A DNA stretch of 64,000 bases from Tachypleus tridentatus. Taxonomy: Eukaryota > Arthropoda > Merostomata > Xiphosura > Limulidae. The position numbers were made by a program, and so were the translations under genes. Below are positions 1 to 39,412 of the stretch, in pieces. Numbering within the stretch: the stretch's first letter is position 1; each line of letters starts with the position of its first letter. The stretch spans positions 137,859,009 to 137,923,008 of the forward strand of contig NC_134834.1 in the NCBI RefSeq assembly GCF_004210375.1, given 5' to 3'. The notes below the pieces were generated by a model. It did no database searches, was not told where the DNA came from, and saw nothing but the letters and a program-made list of their open reading frames with translations.

Positions 1-2309
<2,309 letters not shown>

Positions 2310-2560: not shown

Positions 2561-5070
2561 ATTTCAGGCCTGTGTCATGACATTTGTCTGTACCCTTGTT
2601 TGGTTTGGAAGTTATTTACATATTAATCATAGAAATTTTATATGTCTTTACAGTATTGATACACATTCAACTCAAGATTTTGATGTAATTTTTATTTGTC
2701 TCATGATAACTCCTAGAAAATACTTTCATTTGTTACTAGATCTTTTAAGTTTGAAATGCAGTTGTAAAATTGTAACCATATTAGAAGCACTAATAGTCTA
2801 TTGTTAAGATGCATAAACTTGTTTTCACATATTGTTGAAGTGTTTTATTAAAGAGATATATTTTAGACATAAAGCATCTAAGAGTAAAATAAAGTTTTGA
2901 CAAGCAGATGTAATAATGCAAAATTGTGAACAAAGATGTTTTTTGTTTGGTCATATGCAAAAATTTGTTAACTTGAAATATATAGATTAAACATTGTTGT
3001 AAATGTGCTGATTTCATGAAGTTTATTTCAAGTCTAATAATATTTTAAGTCAAAATGTAATAAATGCTATTTCCAAGAACACGAATTTTGTCTTTTACAC
3101 AGATATTGCTTTGTATTTAAAGAATAAACATTATATGCACTATTGTGCCATTGTGTGTCTTTGTTGTGCACCAAAGTAATTTTGAATTTTATTTTCATCT
3201 CAAATATCAAACTAGTGGCACTTTAGGTATTATTTTGGGAAATAACTGTTGTTAGAGTTTGAAAATTTGGCTTTGTATTAACTTATTTCTTAAATAAAGG
3301 AAAAAATAGCATTTAAAATTATGCATCTTATAATCTTTTATTTAAGAGCCTCAGTGATTTTTATTGTTCAGTAAGGTTAGAGTTCAACAGAAGAAAATGT
3401 GATCGTACAAAAGTTTTTTTTATGATGGTTATGTGTCTGTAATTTCAGGAGTCTAGAAAATGTGGCCATGTACTAGCTGACCATTGTACTTGTGAACTTA
3501 AAAGAATGATTTAACTTTCCATCTGTTTTATTTTACATTTTATATATATATATATAAAAAGTATTTGCAGCTGAAGAGATACCTTCAAAAATCTGTATTA
3601 TTATTTGAAGTGTTCAGTATTAGAAATGTTTTATGCCATGGTTTAAGTAATATTTATTTCCACAAATGTACTTTTAATTTCTAAGGCCCAATTTTGCTAT
3701 TTTATTTTCTACTATTCCCAAAATCCAGATTGCACAGAACCCTCATCGTATATTCAAACTTGAAAAATATTCATGCAGTCTCCTTTTTTAACTTAGTGTT
3801 GCAGCATATACTGTACCTGAAGGCAGTTATTCCAAAGACTGACTCTTCTATTAGGAAAGTAACACTGTTATGTACAAGTTTCATATTTTAAACTTGTCTT
3901 CTTGTCTTAACTACCTAGAATATGTTTTGTAATTGTCATTGGGATATACAGATTTTGTCTATTACACACACATTGTATTTAAAGAATAAACCTCTAACAA
4001 TATTTAATTCATAGTCATATAACCTAATTAAATCTGAATCTATAGTCAGAAATAGTTTAATACAAGTTGAAAAGCTATTATTAACTATGTTTGCAAGAGA
4101 GTAATTGGCATGAAAATATTTTTAATAATCTGGTAGATAACATAACCAATGAAGAATGAAGAGTTACCTAACATTTTATCCTGCCACTGCAAATGGTATT
4201 TATTTTCCTATTGACCATGTATTTCCTGGTAACCTTGACATTGCAATTAATGGTGATTTAAAACATTTAATTAAATATTTTCTAAGTTTCAGGAATGTCA
4301 TAAAATTTATTGGAATCAAACCATAATAGCAATTATTTAAATCACTCAGTTTTAGAGAAATCATGTGAAAAAAAAGCTGGAATAAGATTACTTCTAAAAA
4401 ATAGCTAAATAAATCTGTAATCCATATATACATGAAATATTCAAGGAAATTCAAATATACAACAATGAATAAATTTTGAATAAGAAAGAAGTTACTGTTT
4501 TTTCTTATATAGTAGATATAGTGTCACTCCTGTTGACAAAGCAGCTGATAACTTTGTTTTTATCTGAAACAAAGTTTATGTAACAACTTTATATAAAGAA
4601 CTAAGTTTTATTTTGAAAACACATAAACTGTAGGTAATAAGGTGTATAAGCATGTTAATACAGAATTATCAAGTACTGATAATCTGAAATATGTTAGACT
4701 TTTTATCAACATTACTGTAATATCAAAGAAATAACTGATACTCACCTATTCATTATCTTCAGTAACTCCACTGAGTTTAAAGAAAAAATTTATAGCTTTA
4801 TGACTAAAACAGTAGAAGCTTTAGATTCTAATAACTTGCATCTCTTCCTAATGTAGAAATTAAAAAGAGTATTTCACTAATAATTTCAATAATTGTGGTA
4901 AATTAATGCTTTGTGTTAGCAAAAATAAATGTCTTTGATAATGTTACTTGTAAAAATTGATTGTTTCACAGTTAACAAACATTACAAGTTATATATATTT
5001 TACTTAACACCTTTGTACAGTTCTGTCACCATTTCTTCAAAGAAATCGCAGGATGTCTAGATGTTTAGGG
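2561..5070. other. AT-rich 3' flank with a diverged direct repeat
   Basis: No protein with recognisable features is encoded. A segment near 3085-3129 resembles 3952-3991: both carry ATTTTGTCT, then TACACA, then TGTATTTAAAGAATAAAC, which includes a poly(A)-like hexamer. A short TA run lies at 3541-3556. The remaining ORFs are short and of low complexity. Confidence 0.4.
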
Positions 5071-5153
5071 TGTTTTTGTATTTTTTGTATAGCGAAATCA
5101 CATTGTGCTATCTGCTGTGTCTACCAAGGAGAATCAACCTCTGGCTTTAGTAT
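5071..5153 (-). mobile_element. Diverged T2-type SINE
   Basis: In reverse orientation the order GTATAGCGAAATCACATTG, GCTATCTGCT, CACC-like spacer, GAATCAACC and GGCTTTAG matches the T2 tail, the middle and the B box. Many substitutions make this an old copy. Confidence 0.5.
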
Positions 5154-5279
5154 CACCCTTTGTACCTGTATTAATAAATATATCCAACATCTAAGCATGC
5201 CTTCTACATTTCTACACTCAGTTATGCAACCACCTTCAAACATGGTCAGCTACCGATCAGTAACCCTCTCTTTGTGAAC

Positions 5280-5345
5280 CTGACGATGACTGAAGAAGAT
5301 CGAAACATTGTTTGCTCTTCTACTAGTGCTTTCTCTACCCATACT
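5280..5345 (+). mobile_element. Penelope-like element tail with degenerate hammerhead-like motif
   Basis: CTGACGA at 5280-5286, a 15-base intervening segment, then GAAA at 5302-5305 and TCTACCCATACTAGCC downstream. The same arrangement (core motif, then a CCCATA-CAG/AGCC block) recurs at 17585, 22678 and 38853, and on the minus strand near 11965. Next to two of these copies lie Penelope-like protein remnants, so I read this one as an isolated tail. Confidence 0.5.
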
Positions 5346-6559
5346 AGCCATTTTTAAATATATAATCTTCAAAAATATTGTTTTTATAGATTAATTATTT
5401 TAAGTAATAATAACCACTGTATTATAGCAACCACCATTAGTTTGACTTTTCTTTGCTTTGTAGCTTTTACAGTAGTGTATAGTATAATGTTCACTCTTCA
5501 CCATATCATTACTTCTTTTTTTCTAAATCGTATTATTACTGTAAAATTTCTTGAACAATTATCATCTGTTATCTTACAGTTATCTTTCACAGCTAAACTG
5601 TTTGATAGCTTGGAAAGTAAGGGTTGCAAAGCTTTACAACCAATAAAATGTCCTAGTTCCACAAAAACTAACAGAAACATACAATGTAGTGCATATACAG
5701 TAATTTACAATGTCACCTAATAACTAAGAAACAAAGATTTGCAGTGCCCTTGTCTAACTTCCATATTAATTTTCTAACTCCTAGCTATTGTCTCTAGTTA
5801 AGTAGATTTGTAATGTACTAGACATATCTTCTGGTACTAGCCATCCCTTCTTTCTAGCAATCAAGTGAAAATCACCCCCATTCAGTTATTTATTTCTCAG
5901 TTACATGACTATCACAGTAGTTGCTTATCAAAATTATGCAGTTATATCAACTGGGAGGTTGTCATCAGCAGTTCCATGAACAGTTAGAGCTGTATCCCAA
6001 ACAGCCACATATGTACTTTCAGCTCCTCTTTCCTTATCATTAGGGCAGGAGATTGCATAACATTCTGAATTGACTACATTGATCAGCTCAGTTTTCCAGA
6101 GTTTGATTAACACACAATTTTTACTTTTGCACACTTCTAAACTGCTGTAACTATTTAAATGGTCTGACTTATTGGAGAACAAAATGAGATTCAGTTGAAA
6201 CCAAGGGGTTCCAATGCTGTGGACACACAAAATAGCTGCACCTAGTCTCTTGTGGTACATTTATTTCTTCACTGTCTTACCATAACACCTCTTTTGTTAT
6301 ATGCTGACAATCTGCTCACTGTTAATGAACAAACTTATGTGTGAGTGTAAACAAAGACATCTACTCTAGGTGAAGGACCAGAGGTGAAATTTTGCCAGTA
6401 CTGAGTAGAGAAACTGGTTTTTAAGGCAGTTCCAGTACCATGACTTACTTGAGTTGCTTTGTTATATTTACATGTAGATATTTTTCTGTTTCAAAAACCA
6501 GGTCCACTTTATTCAACTGAATACCACTACTTTTTCTTTTTTTTTAGAATTTCACCATA
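5346..6559. other. Unassigned stretch with a 108-codon minus ORF
   Basis: An ORF at 5934-6260 (-) has no domain I recognise. It lies just downstream, on the same strand, of the gypsy integrase remnant, so it may be a leftover of the pol C-terminus or of the 3' end of that element. Otherwise the stretch shows nothing definable. Confidence 0.3.
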
Positions 6560-25425: not shown

Positions 25426-25815
25426 TTCTTTCCTCTGTCACATTCAAATTTGTCTGGAAATGGATCAAAGCAAGAAGATATATTGGTTCCCACATTACAG
25501 TTTATTCTACATTTACAGTATGAAGGTATCACATCATTCATAACAGTGTTTAAGTGATAAAAATACTAAAACGCTCGTTAGATAAGTTTGTTTTGAATTT
25601 CGCGAAAAGTCACACGAGGGCTATATATGCACTAGCCGTCCTTCATTTAGCTGTGAAAGACTAGAGGGAAGGCAACTAGTCATCACTATCCACCACCAAC
25701 TCTTGAACTACTATTTTACGAACGAATTGTGGGATTGATCGTTACATATAACGCTCCCATGGCTAAAAGGGGCGAGCATTTTTGGCGCTACGGGGATTCA
25801 AACTAGCGACCCTCA

Positions 25816-25830
25816 GATTACGGGTCGAGT
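25816..25830. repeat. LINE target-site duplication, left copy
   Basis: GATTACGGGTCGAGT here pairs with GATTACGAGTCGAGT at 31272-31286, 14 of 15 identical. In SINE sense it reads ACTCGACTCGTAATC, the anticodon stem and loop. Confidence 0.9.
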
Positions 25831-26300
25831 ATTTTTTTTCTCTTTATTCATCCCACCTCAAAGAGGGGGTATAAACAAAAATACATGAAATAAAATACTA
25901 GTTAAATAATTATCACATGGAGAGAAAACACTGCAAGATACCACCTTGTTAAAAAATTACAACAAAAGGTATAAAATGAATTAGAAAATATAAAAGAAGT
26001 AATAGTTAGCGGTAAGTATCTAAATCAAATTACACGAAAAACATTAATAAAACAAAGAAAAGAATGGAACACTGTGATAAAAAAAAGAAAACTCAATTGT
26101 AGAAAAGAACACATTTTATCTTAACAAAGCACATAACAGGTATCCGTGCACTCCCTTTGTAACCAACCTACCGTTATAGTGATACAATGAATAAAAGACA
26201 CTTAATGAGTCATGTAACACACATCTGTGATAACGTAAGTGTATATGTTTGCGTAAACGCACTTTATAGAACGAAATTAAATGAAGCTTGCGATTGCGTG

Positions 26301-29300
26301 TTAACTGAACAGACCTCGCAGATTGGATAACAAGCCATGCAAACTAGTTAATAAGCGAAAAATATTTAAACACCGACCAGGTAAGAGAGGATGAGATCCC
26401 ACTAACTGGCATCTCCTCCAGACCCAGTTGGAGATGGGGCATCCATAATAAAATTCCAGTAAAGCATACACATAGGACCACAAGGTCTGGACAGAAGGAT
26501 ACATGAAAAACAGATGGTCAATGGTTTCCCGCGTTAGTGCACAAAAAGTGCATAAACCCGTGGGATGCCTATCCATATGTACTAACTTAACATTAGTAGT
26601 CACCGCTCGCAACCATAACAAATAATTCACGGTACAGACATCAAAACCCACAAATGATGAAAAGGTAGATTTGCGAATGAGTGTCCAATCGTCTGGAGGA
26701 ACAATATTCCCCCAAAAGGATGGAGCAGAGACATGATGAGCAAGTGAACAATTCAAATAACAAAACAACTGCTTCAGAGTTAATCCCCTAAAATGGACCC
26801 GTTGATTAGAAGAGTCCACAAAGTACAAGTCTATTTCATGCTGTGTCGAGGGCAGCGGAGCTGGCTGAGTAGACGTGAGCGCCAGCCAATCTTCAGGCAA
26901 TGCATCCGTCAAAGAAGTGAGATGTGAAACAATAGTATTGACATTCAACGACATATCGACATCACTACACATTTCCACAACCGCCTCCACAGGGAGAAAT
27001 CCTGGGAGCACCTCATACAATAAGTGTCGCACAAGGACCAATCCTGCTTTAATAAATTCAGGAAAATAAAACGTGTGTGACCGAGCATCAACAAGAACAG
27101 AATTGAGAAACAATGGTTCGTCAAAAACATGTGATGAAAGAGGAACAGGGGCAAACCCTTTATCCCCAAGCAGTACCTTCCATGCACGAAACATTTCTTG
27201 AATAAACATTGGCAAGACCTTCACATACCTCGGCAAAATCCGGCGTTGAAGACCCCGAAATCCCCTTGCGAGTTCACCATAACAAGAGAAAAACCCAGAA
27301 AGAAGTTGCCACAAAGGCGACGGACAAGAACCGTCCAAACATCTCTGCAGCAATTTCAAGCGAAAAGCAAGTTTACGAACGTGTATATCTACCAAATGGA
27401 TACCCCAACTAGCAAAATTCTTGGTCAAGATCCAATAAGCAACCTTGTGAATACCACCCCGCCACACGAAATCTAATACACTTTGACGAAACCGAGCTTC
27501 AAATTGCTGTGGCAATGGGAGGATTTGCAATGGATACCACAAAACTGACGCCACCAAGGCATTCACCACGATAGATTTGCCCTTAAGCGACAGGGAACGA
27601 TATCGCTAGGACACCAGGATACTTGAGACTTTGCGCAAAAATCCCCGCCACGTATCCTGCAGCATAACATCAAATTGAGAATGAAAAACAATACCCAAAA
27701 TCCGTATAGGATTGTGGGAGATTTTCAACTCTCCCAGGACATACTCATCAGAAGAGGCCAAGCTCCCAACCCAGAGACCCTGACTCTTTGTCCAATTAAT
27801 CCTACCACCCGAAGCCCGACCAAAAATACTACAAACATCCAAAACGTATGGCAAGGAATCGGAATCTTGTAAAGTCAATGTAGTGTCGTCAGCATGTTGA
27901 TAAATAAGGGACGGTGTGTTGAGGAACCCATCACCCCCAATACCTATAATCCGATCATGATGGACCAACATATTTCTCAATGGTTCAACACTGAGAACAT
28001 AAAGCAAAGCAGACATTGGGCAGCCTTGACGAATACCTTGAGATAAGGAGAACCTATCAGTGAGAAAGCCATTAAACTTAACACAGCTAGAAATATCAGT
28101 ATAACATAGTTTAATCCAATTAACAAAAGTCGAGTGAAAACCTACTCGCACCAGAAGTTGAAATAAATAGTCATGGTTCACCCGATCAAAGGCTTTCATT
28201 TGATTGAGCTTCAAAAAAATCCTCCCCTGTCCTGTACGTTCCAAAGATTGGAGAAGCAAAACTAAAGTTAACGGGTTATCAATGACATCCCGTCCAGGTT
28301 TACAACCAGATTGATTAACTGACACTAAACTAGATATTACGGTGGAAAGGCGTCGAGCCAGCACTTTAGCCAATAACTTGTAGTCAGTACACAGCAACGT
28401 CAGTGGCCGACTATTAGTCGCCAACCGTCGATCCCCGCCCTTCCGAACAATCACCCCAATCCACATAGAATGGATCAACTGTTTGGAGTGATAGAGGTCG
28501 GACAAGACGGTTACAAAATCATCTACAAATAACGGTAAAAAGTACTTGTAAAATTCTAATGTAAATCCATCAAGACTCGGAGATTTTCCAGTCGGTAAAC
28601 CAGCAAGTGCAGATAACAATTCCGAGGCCGTGTAAGGTGCATCACACATATGAGCTTGTTCAGGGGAAAGCGTTTTGTCGATAAAGTTGAGCACCATATC
28701 TACATCATCCTGCTGAACTTCTTCTTTAGTGTACAAAGTAGAATAATAGTGATGTAAAACAGCAGCTATATCATCCACCTCGAACACCTCATTCAGTAAG
28801 CATGGATCGAAACTCTGTCCGAACCTGCCGAACTTTCTCCATACGCAAAAAGTAAGAGGTTGACCTTTCGCCCTCCTCGAACCAACGAATATGTGAACGA
28901 ATTCGAGCCCCTTCAATGGCGTCATGATCAAATTTCTCCAAGTCTTCTTTATATGCATATAACTTTTCCCTAGACCGAGTAGGGTAACTCGCCAATTTAC
29001 GTAACTCACGAGCAACGGAATGTTCCAACTTACGTTCGTTAAATCGAATGTCATACGCCCGACGAAGCGAATATCGCTTGGTAATATCACAGATTGCATT
29101 TTTTAAGGTCGCATACCAAGAGATCTTGTCACGACCATATACTTGCCAACTACGGCTTCTTTCGATTAAGAATGTGATGGTATTTATGTATTCAACATCT
29201 CTCAAAAGCTGATTATTAAAGTGCCAGTAATTTGGACCCGTAACAACTTTAGATAAGTTAAGTTTGAAGCTTAACAGAGCATGATCGGTACCAGGAAACC

Positions 29301-29961
29301 ACATCATATGGAAACTACTGACAGTACTCTGCAGGTTAGCCGTAATCAAGGCCCTGTCTAGACAGGAAGTGATCAACTCTCCAAGAACAAAACGCCTCCA
29401 CGTGAAACCAGGGGTATTTGATGTTAATAATGAATGTGCATCCAATAAACCGAACAATAAACCTTGTAATGAACTGTTCAAAGGCTAGACGACTGGCATC
29501 ACGGGATAAACGTACAGGAAATTTTTCACGCGTTTCATCCAAAACACAATTAAAATCCCAAACTACTATCAATCCCGAGCAATCATCTTAATGAACGATA
29601 AAAATCCCGTCGTTCGTAAATGTCACGTGGTGCATAAACAGATAACAATTTAAATGATAAATTCGTAAATATGAACTTTAACGTTATCACTCGACCACCC
29701 CCATCCGAGAAATCAAGCATAACTTTGTCACTCAAATGTCGCTGTAACAAAATAGCCACCCCTGACGTCCATTATGTGAATTATTGACAAAAACAGAACC
29801 CTTCCAATATTCCGTGACAACTTCAATAAAATCATTAGTAAAAAAAGTTTCCTGTAAACACACCACATAAAAATTAGCAGAAAAGTAATCCAAAAATACG
29901 ACAATTTGCTGATATGCAAACCGTTACAATTCAATACACCCACCTTAAGTGATTGGATCAT
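26301..29961 (-). pseudogene. LINE ORF2: AP endonuclease and reverse transcriptase, broken
   Basis: About 1,220 codons from ATG at 29961. Endonuclease: LKVGVLNCNG, LQETFF (catalytic Glu), SVYAPRD near 29620-29643, VVWDFNCVLD near 29550, and GTDHALLSF near 29276-29290, which holds the final catalytic His. RT: IFLKLNQMKAFDRVNH, QGIRQGCPMS, then HADDTTL near 27882-27905 with the palm DD pair. C-terminus: CTFC followed by a conserved His near 26500-26560; the last Cys of the usual C-C-H-C set appears to be Tyr. Breaks: frame changes near 29720-29830, 29580, 29450 and 28790-28830. A TAG at 27606-27608 is in frame, with the reading continuing on both sides; it sits where relatives have Trp before the LSLKGK block, so a TGG-to-TAG change is likely. 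The long clean runs (28.8-27.6 and 27.6-26.3 kb) suggest moderate age. Confidence 0.88.
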
Positions 29962-30191
29962 GCTAAGATAAAAGACATAGTATGAATAAACAAATTAATC
30001 TAGTACAAAAGATGAACAAAGATATCAACATGTAGTAGAAAATGTACTATGTAAAAGTACATTATTCACTTGCACAATATCGTAATGACACAAAAAATAA
30101 GAAGAAAATTAGCAAATAGGTAACTACTGTTGAGATACGGTCTTAGACTTCGCCTTAGAGAGACGCAGTACCGTCATGTACGATAAACGTT

Positions 30192-31169
30192 TCAGTCCAC
30201 CACCTTTCTTCGTGGTCCCAGGAGTGTCCGTCGCCACCACACTCGCATATTTCCATCGGCGAGATACAGGTTCCACAACAGCACTGGTGGCAGACTCACC
30301 TCGAAGGGTGGGAAGTGGCTGTCTAAATGTCGGCGTCCAACAGAGGGTTGACTACTAGCTCGTTCTCTCGCACCTGTAGAGACAGTCGAACGACGAGAAG
30401 ACTTGTCCTGCGAGACACTATGGGTAGCCGCCTCTTTCAGCGGGAGAGAAACCTCCATTGTTTGTCGTGGAACGTCAGTTGATCGATCACCCTTATCTGA
30501 TTCTACACTTTCAATAGGGGCCTGAGCCACTACAACACTATCGCGAGGGAGAGGCGGGGAAACCCCAAGCTTAGGACAACGATGACGCACGTGACCTTGC
30601 TCATGACAGTTCCGGCAAATTAATGGGGACAATCTCCAGCACTTTCACTTTCATTTGATGGTCATGTTTTACCTTGAGCATTACAACCTTTCTCAGGGGA
30701 TCAATAACCTTCACGACATATGGCAAAGATGTACATGTGGCACTAAACGAAACACGAACATGGCAAACACCTAAATAAATACCTTGGTCCCGTTTCCATA
30801 CAAGAGGACTTTTAACCTCACATTCAACTTCTGCAAAAGTACAGCATCGTCGATATACTCAGGTACATCCATGAAAGAAACAGTAACTGTACGTTTGGTA
30901 ACCCCATTCGTGAAGTAATGCACTCCATTAACCAATAAACCAGAATCAATCACCATATCGACATCAGCAGATAAAACGAAAGCAACCTCATAGCCACCGG
31001 GTCGTGGAACAACTGAAGTTACTGAAGCCGCTCCAAAAGTTGAACAAACTGCATGGATAACTTCACCATGGCTGGCATTAGAACATTCAACAAAAACAGT
31101 ATGTCGCATAACATCAAGCGTATCAACGTCATTAGAAGATATCGCTACTACACAGCGAAAAAACAGCAA
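30192..31169 (-). pseudogene. LINE ORF1 (gag-like, CCHC zinc knuckle), broken
   Basis: Starts at 31169. The N-terminal part (to 30771) has blocks HTVFVECSN and KRTVTVSFMDVPEY, the alternating beta pattern seen in Tx1-type ORF1 proteins, which act as nucleic-acid-binding partners of ORF2. A frame change near 30771 and another near 30635 lead to CRNCHEQGHVRHRC (30580-30620), a CCHC knuckle with spacing C-x2-C-x4-H-x4-C. A basic, Ser/Pro-rich C-terminus follows, ending at 30192. Family RNP function is inferred. Confidence 0.8.
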
Positions 31170-31271
31170 AAACGATTAGTAACACAAGAAACAATTAATA
31201 TTAAGAAAACGAGGCCTAGCGAAATATAAGAAGTAGCAAATTACGGAGCTCAAAAACACACGTCTGCACTG

Positions 31272-31286
31272 GATTACGAGTCGAGT
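31272..31286. repeat. LINE target-site duplication, right copy
   Basis: GATTACGAGTCGAGT, partner of 25816-25830. It joins directly to the head of the interrupted T1 SINE. Confidence 0.9.
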
Positions 31287-31312
31287 GCCTTAACCACTTA
31301 GCCATGCCAGGC

Positions 31313-39165: not shown

Positions 39166-39412
39166 GGTCCGGCATGGCCACGTGGTTAAGACACTCGACT
39201 CGTAATCTGAGGGTGGCGAGTTCGAATCGCCCTGTCAGCCGTGGGGACGTTATAATGTGACGGTTAATCCCACTATTAGTTGGTAAAAGAGTAGCCCAAG
39301 AGTTGGCGGTGGGTGGTGATGACTAGTTGCTTTCCCTCTAGTCTGTATAATAAATTAGGGACGTCTAACGCAGATAGCCCTCGTGTAGCTTTGCGAGTAA
39401 TTAAAAAACAAA
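39166..39412 (+). mobile_element. T1 SINE with deletion after the B box
   Basis: Head GGTCCGGCATGGCCACGTGG, anticodon arm ACTCGACTCGTAATCTGAG and B box GAGTTCGAATC are present. The usual CACCAAACATGCTCGCCC is reduced to CCCTG before CAGCCGTGGGG. Body and tail are complete. Confidence 0.88.

Follow-up and report, generated by a model that had tools for sequence, protein, structure and literature searches.

LINEs (long interspersed nuclear elements) that insert at specific targets are known in the Tx1, R1 and early-branching groups (PMC4640811), and the closest described relatives in habit of the element reported here are Mutsu in 5S, Keno in U2 and Dewa in the tRNA-Leu spacer (PMC3706591). Target-specific Tx1 elements have an apurinic/apyrimidinic endonuclease-like (APE-type) endonuclease (PMC4640811, PMC3706591), and Mutsu is an element of ~5500 bp with two open reading frames (ORFs) that resides in 5S (PMC11202950). 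Here, we analysed a full-length LINE in a 64,000-nt stretch of Tachypleus tridentatus DNA (contig NC_134834.1; the whole stretch is called the window), together with its relatives in the 2.17-Gb genome assembly of which the window is a part, and found that most of the junctions read for its family fall at one position, the anticodon arm, in the tRNA-like heads of short interspersed nuclear elements (SINEs). The LINE resembles Mutsu, Keno and Dewa in its strict small-RNA-gene targets and its APE-type endonuclease, and it agrees with Mutsu in length, ORF plan and one 5S insertion (by a sister copy), a likeness at the level of the target gene; it differs from all three in the target of its main family, tRNA-derived heads belonging to two or more SINE families.

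Other elements share parts of this behaviour. Dada DNA transposons target the anticodon region of several tRNA genes as well as 5S and small nuclear RNA genes, and their target switches have been explained by sequence similarity (PMC8869645); they differ in being DNA transposons, in their 6-7 bp duplications (PMC3706591) and in lying opposite in orientation to the tRNA at the anticodon site, and the main texts of PMC3706591 and PMC8869645 do not contain the word SINE. NeSL-1_TV (tRNA-Pro), LIN15_SM (tRNA-Arg) and LIN25_SM (tRNA-Glu) are likewise reported to be tRNA-gene-specific LINEs (PMC4640811), but they are kin of restriction-like-endonuclease lineages and are reported for one tRNA gene each. 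TRE5 and TRE3 of Dictyostelium, L1-clade LINEs, are also tied to tRNA genes, and TRE5 to 5S too, but they insert upstream or downstream at a distance, and TRE5 interacts with TFIIIB (PMC5911963); insertion of this kind was not what we found, as the LINE described here cuts inside the anticodon arm. In the open-access literature searched, we found no report of a LINE that targets SINE heads at the anticodon arm, with the possible exception of Szemraj 1995, known to us by its title, which names a "new site-specific retroelement" and bovine Alu-like sequences and is a possible precedent.

A LINE in the anticodon arm of a SINE head

The window LINE and its host, a member of a SINE family termed SINE A, both lie on the minus strand, and the insertion is made up of the following parts.

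25831..31271, minus strand: LINE, full-length, frames broken, 5441 bp; its 5' start and A-rich 3' end are shared with other long copies
25816..25830, minus strand: target-site duplication, copy at the LINE 3' end, reading ACTCGACCCGTAATC in SINE sense
31272..31286, minus strand: target-site duplication, copy at the LINE 5' end, reading ACTCGACTCGTAATC in SINE sense
31272..31312, minus strand: SINE A head, 5' part up to the anticodon loop (head nt 2-42, 95% identity)
25791..25830, minus strand: SINE A head, 3' part, anticodon arm to T arm (head nt 28-67, 90% identity)
25600..25790, minus strand: SINE A body downstream of the head; outer boundary by eye, approximate; a similar body stands behind heads elsewhere

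The two halves of one SINE A head align on either side of the LINE and share 15 bp, which constitute the duplication. When tRNA numbers are assigned by eye, counting from the T arm, these 15 bp correspond to nt 26, the stem at 27-31, the loop at 32-38 and two bases of the stem. A first-pass annotation of the window had placed the LINE in the anticodon arm of a tRNA-derived SINE, in the same orientation, and this placement is exact to the base, with the head halves overlapping over the duplication. The 15-bp duplication that it reported is borne out in length and in its position at the anticodon stem-loop, but its two copies are not identical, since ACTCGACCCGTAATC and ACTCGACTCGTAATC differ by one mismatch.

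Junctions across the genome assembly

A 1.5-kb query from the LINE gave at least 60 matches in the genome (40 of 321 candidates being scored), from which 39 further places were taken, 20 of them, the best-scoring copies, fetched at 8.9 kb and 19 at 0.9 kb. The 27-base 3' end of the LINE, with up to two mismatches allowed, occurred at 243 places, and its reversed control at 0. The best 100 of these 243 were listed, best match first, and 80 of the 81 new places among them were counted; the last, outside the counts, resembles a SINE A copy (L102). In total, 118 3' junctions were scored and collapsed at >93% flank identity into 90 groups, one of which lacked the LINE end, leaving 89 groups that stand for distinct flanks and not for proven independent events.

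Among the first 20 copies, the LINE 3' end is kept in 18, and in all 18 the sequence behind it is a tRNA-like head that starts at the anticodon arm (7 SINE A, 10 SINE B, 1 of a third type, C), the head match in one copy (L011) stopping after ~13 bases. By eye, 13 copies, the window copy included, have the complementary half of that SINE type as their 5' flank, and the mismatch of the remaining 5' flanks is due to 5' truncation or rearrangement.

Across the 89 distinct junctions, 33 lie in SINE A, 33 in SINE B and 1 in C (by eye), and the small-RNA classes comprise 3 tRNA-Val-like, 3 tRNA-Leu, 1 tRNA-Ser-like (by eye), 1 5S and 1 7SL-like sequence. Thus 66/89 are at the anticodon-arm position of SINE A or B heads, 10/89 in other tRNA-like or small-RNA sequence and 13/89 elsewhere. 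The automatic scoring had left 36/118 junctions as "other"; L011, L027, L044, L113, L114, L131, L132, L038 and the sets on C13 and C19 were labelled by hand, and the 7SL class was assigned by Rfam. The same scoring put 60 of the 66 SINE A/B junctions within a set 8-nt window, the LINE A tail blurring the cut position by 1-2 nt. As for the other six, two (L015, L111) had been aligned to a second SINE further on, three (L071, L101, L127) were scored a few bases upstream and one (L011) was unscored; by eye, all six start in the anticodon arm or within ~5 nt of it.

SINE heads are themselves common, with 17 matches, some partial, in the 58.6 kb of window background (about one per 3.4 kb), from which an insertion would be expected at the site and in the right orientation in 0.12% of cases; the observed 60/89 has a tail probability <1e-150, so chance is excluded. 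This comparison of LINE-copy flanks genome-wide is the check that the first-pass annotation had proposed, and with most junctions at one anticodon-arm position (66/89 in SINE heads) and a few in tRNA-like or small-RNA sequence, its suggestion that the family recognises tRNA-like DNA is strongly supported.

Two sets of repeated flanks were also seen. At L084-L093 (C19), L065 (C3) and L074 (C8), the LINE 3' end is joined, by eye, to a zf-RVT-like coding fragment, in 12 near-identical flanks of which 10 are on C19, and this chimeric repeat was probably amplified secondarily. On C13 at 263-265 Mb, five LINE copies (L032, L033, L034, L037, L045) have near-identical flanks, most starting CATCCGACT; this resembles how the tRNA-Val target begins, but no tRNA was seen to follow. 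No LINE match was present in the 5' regions retrieved for two C13 copies, one C4 copy and the copies in 7SL-like and tRNA-Ser-like sequence, all of which are probably truncated further at their 5' ends.

Position and bases of the target site

By eye, SINE A, B and C are all cut ~8 nt 5' of the anticodon triplet. Alignment of the SINE A head with the SINE B head is possible over only 14 nt of the T arm, yet both are cut at the same tRNA position. In tRNA genes called by ARAGORN, the cut precedes nt 27 of tRNA-Leu, with the anticodon at 35, and nt 25 of tRNA-Val, with the anticodon at 34. Wherever a T loop was found, it lies 36-45 nt behind the fixed LINE-end point, a spread that is mostly A-tail length, and the SINE target accordingly has the appearance of a tRNA-derived sequence with its T arm in register. 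Against a tRNA-derived head weighs that ARAGORN called no tRNA gene in the two SINE consensus heads; Rfam, run on one SINE copy of each, gave no match at gathering score, its weaker matches including a weak tRNA-Sec.

The sites of SINE A, B and C have a GAYT core in common, which is absent from the tRNA-Val, tRNA-Leu and 5S sites; the sequence at the cut is GCGCCGGTTCT in 5S and GCGCTGGTTTT in tRNA-Leu. Within SINE A, 28/33 targeted heads have CT at +2/+3 versus 15/40 untargeted ones (p 4e-5, hits counted by eye), a preference that is confounded by subfamily age; local alignment ends also inflate the per-position p values for the first bases. SINE A head types in the window differ at the 5' side of the anticodon stem, reading GGCACTCGA, GGCGTTCGA or GGCGTGCGA (e.g. 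39166-39231, 58452-58390). From the bases at these sites, the endonuclease would appear to read DNA directly, over roughly the anticodon stem and loop.

Outside the target, the tails of SINE A (L113) and SINE B (L079) share ~20 nt near the 3' end, so the two families are not fully distinct, and the two SINEs perhaps had a common partner LINE other than this one. Mobilisation of the SINEs by the LINE itself was considered and rejected, as its last 200 bases align only over short stretches and weakly with the SINE A and SINE B tails.

A sister lineage in tRNA, 5S and 7SL-like sequence

A sister LINE lineage, ~74% identical to the window LINE over the 3' part (L046, L047, with more copies found via the 3' pattern), occupies several of the small-RNA sites. 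The 5' parts of two of its copies (L140, L142) are 79-81% identical to a third (L048), and ~66-76% identical, in pieces, to the window LINE. Behind L047 lies 5S sequence (Rfam 43 bits versus a gathering score of 38), cut before 5S nt 27; this copy is ~58 kb from the 5S array on C8, and its 5' side is N. It provides the sole 5S junction, and none was seen for the main family among the junctions read. Seven junctions fall in tRNA-Leu, L046 at C4:70.2 Mb and L103, L118, L135, L136, L137 and L138 at C4:47.42-47.63 Mb; five of them have near-identical flanks, and six are cut at the same place. L136 and L138 belong to head-to-tail copies: after the 3' half of tRNA-Leu and a short spacer, a further LINE begins. 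L105 lies in tRNA-Val sequence, and L131/L132 lie in 7SL-like sequence.

Immediately upstream of the sister LINEs, ARAGORN called intact tRNA genes, tRNA-Leu(TAG) in L048 and L142 and tRNA-Val(AAC) in L140. At these three fully read 5' junctions, the order is tRNA gene, 5S-identical piece, LINE, with 18, 19 and 21 nt at the LINE 5' ends matching the host 5S gene at every base. Past the LINE, the flank repeats the tRNA from the anticodon arm to beyond its end, over 66 bp in L048/L046 and 54 bp in L140/L105, each with 2 mismatches. Insertion by the sister lineage thus leaves a whole tRNA gene behind. In L142/L136, the repeat starts later and extends into the 5S piece, because another LINE follows. 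By eye, one stem pair is lost in the downstream tRNA half and kept in the upstream gene, for both tRNA-Leu (L046) and tRNA-Val (L105). We dropped the explanation that the 5S fragment of L048 is part of the tRNA-Leu spacer, as L140 has the same 5S piece beside a different tRNA gene.

In two main-family copies, L021 and L023, the LINE is preceded by GTTCTCG. These 7 nt are also present in 5S and may be a remnant of the 5S tag, but a match of this length carries little weight.

Coding regions and group of the LINE

The reading frames of the window LINE are broken and its ORF2 is in pieces, which could be placed as follows, partly by projection from other copies.

30111..31175, minus strand: ORF1 region, possible zinc-knuckle protein, broken; projected from L013:2023-3087, approximate
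29331..29987, minus strand: APE-type endonuclease region of ORF2, broken; projected from L009:3197-3853, approximate
27606..29099, minus strand: reverse transcriptase piece of ORF2, 497 aa; RVT_1 E 8.4e-29, best Protein Data Bank (PDB) matches L1 ORF2p
26301..27569, minus strand: C-terminal ORF2 piece, zinc-binding zf-RVT, 422 aa; zf-RVT E 1.1e-5, slightly below the curated cut-off

In L009, zf-RVT scores above the curated cut-off, as does the APE-type endonuclease (Exo_endo_phos E 2.2e-9 at 3197-3853); in L013, Exo_endo_phos at 3385-4413 (E 4.5e-4) and a weak zf-CCHC_2 match in ORF1 (E 0.003) remain below it. CCHC zinc knuckles in ORF1 are a feature of the Tx1 clade, to which Mutsu and Dewa belong, and sequence-specific insertion in multicopy sequence, another trait of that clade, is present in this LINE family. 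Among PDB chains, the best five matches to the reverse transcriptase (E 3.5e-38 to 1.6e-37) comprise four named L1 ORF2p and one named only RNA-directed DNA polymerase, compared with E 3.8e-10 for R2; a search of a plasmid collection with the reverse transcriptase gave no match. By its reverse transcriptase the LINE belongs to the L1/Tx1 group, and by its endonuclease to the APE type, a PDB match resolving the group only. The first-pass assignment to Tx1 is thus supported only to the level of the L1 group, in that the reverse transcriptase is nearest to L1 ORF2p among solved structures and the endonuclease is of the APE type.

Identity between the window copy and 20 others across the reverse transcriptase region is 91.6-96.4%, for some of them over a short overlap, which indicates a family that either is not recent or is slow to evolve. 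LINE positions 5073-5440, part of the 3' untranslated region, are matched twice, as a tandem repeat, in many copies (L009, L010, L011, L012, L015-L017, L024, L027; partly L014, L018-L020) and not in the window copy, which suggests two LINE subfamilies. Elsewhere in the window (1812-2309, plus strand), a small ORF encodes a single CCHC-like motif and a tail rich in lysine and serine.

Discussion

We consider it highly probable that the element is an APE-type LINE of the L1 group whose endonuclease reads DNA and which, probably a 5S/tRNA specialist at first, spread into the far commoner SINE heads. On the established model of target-primed reverse transcription, the junctions would place an endonuclease nick in the bottom strand ~8 nt 5' of the anticodon triplet, and the free 3' end would then prime reverse transcription of the A-rich RNA tail. 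The cut in the second strand would lie about 13-16 nt beyond the first and behind the anticodon loop in SINEs, giving the duplicated stem-loop, and past the gene end in tRNA genes. The 5S piece would come from RNA that originated in, or became joined to, a source resident in 5S, and the move between 5S and tRNA may have been made through the likeness of the two sites. Drift of such a 5S/tRNA-gene specialist onto tRNA-derived SINE heads would have offered an escape from the limit of a low-copy target. From these arrangements, we infer the order 5S, tRNA, SINE.

Several observations weigh against this interpretation. Thirteen of the 89 junctions lie outside any recognised target (10 unclassified, 1 in the SINE A interior, 1 in a repeat on C13 and 1 in the zf-RVT chimera mostly on C19), and the listing of 3' ends covered the best 100 of the 243, ranked from best to worse match. 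Some small-RNA junctions are off the common position: L136 lies 12 nt deeper in tRNA-Leu, L129 deeper in a tRNA-Val-like stretch and L114 within the loop of a tRNA-Ser-like stretch, and the 7SL-like site, whose Rfam match is partial (35 bits versus a gathering score of 70), is not a tRNA. The CT preference could reflect the commonest SINE subfamily at the time when the LINE was active. Finally, none of 21 copies has a full-length open ORF2, the longest open stretch being 865 aa, so activity cannot be judged from sequence.

The alternatives differ in which of these features they account for. Guidance by the RNA polymerase III (Pol III) machinery, with TFIIIB or TFIIIC at the A and B boxes leading the LINE to its targets as in TRE5 and the exact site being secondary, would explain why the recognised targets are all Pol III-type units (tRNA-like, 5S, 7SL-like, SINE heads), and it has a precedent in TRE5, whose ORF1 protein binds TFIIIB and which is also found at 5S genes (PMC5911963). 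We nevertheless regard it as improbable, since such elements insert beside the gene at a distance (PMC5911963), whereas here insertion is inside and mostly at one position; moreover, the hits distinguish SINE A subfamilies by two bases adjoining the cut, and many of the hit SINE copies look like old relics, for which transcription seems unlikely. An endonuclease with a short degenerate preference (such as YYNGAYTY) and no recognition of tRNA-like sequence as such would be in keeping with the GAYT core of the three SINE sites, but YYNGAYTY occurs 120 times in the window background compared with 17 head matches, yet only 13/89 junctions lie outside RNA-like targets, and the tRNA-Val, tRNA-Leu and 5S sites do without GAYT; this too we hold to be unlikely. 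A longer motif, YYNGAYTYRYAA, present 7 times in the background, could nearly suffice, and at that length the explanation shades into that of an endonuclease reading the anticodon arm.

Explanations that dispense with a preference fare far worse. If insertions were widespread and only those in SINEs survived, SINEs being mostly neutral DNA, selection would still leave unexplained why one position and one orientation in the SINE head recur across 66 distinct flanks, and we see very little room for this. An unspecific LINE meeting abundant SINEs, plausible at first sight given the frequency of heads in the window, is refuted by the 0.12% expected at the site and orientation versus 60/89 under strict scoring, and we give it next to no credence.

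Returning to an endonuclease that reads the target DNA, most of the observed insertions are in SINEs because two abundant SINE families carry such heads, which, extrapolated from one window, would number hundreds of thousands. The further step, that a single LINE lineage moved across classes of Pol III unit, from 5S (hence the tag of 18-21 nt) to tRNA-Leu and tRNA-Val and then to SINE heads as landing pads, is to our minds evenly balanced between true and false. The first-pass annotation had proposed SINE heads as decoys or safe harbours; most insertions are indeed in SINE heads, but sister copies are found in 5S, tRNA-Leu and tRNA-Val, beside an intact tRNA gene. The term "landing pad" fits these data, and "decoy" and "safe harbour" are unproven.

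Targeted LINEs in small-RNA genes are known; what is new, within the literature available to us, is the use of tRNA-derived SINE heads as the main target of a LINE. LINEs with a strict target are as a rule restricted to gene families that are small and essential; the one described here uses the tRNA-like portion of a different class of transposon. With copies and junctions in 5S, tRNA, 7SL-like and SINE sites, a single genome makes the evolution of specificity observable and offers a naturally occurring panel of endonuclease substrates in which the recognised bases can be identified. The 5S pieces carried at the LINE 5' ends suggest that these elements once resided in another target or were transcribed from one. 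If SINE heads did serve as landing pads, a strict specialist would have become a nearly dispersed element without losing its specificity.

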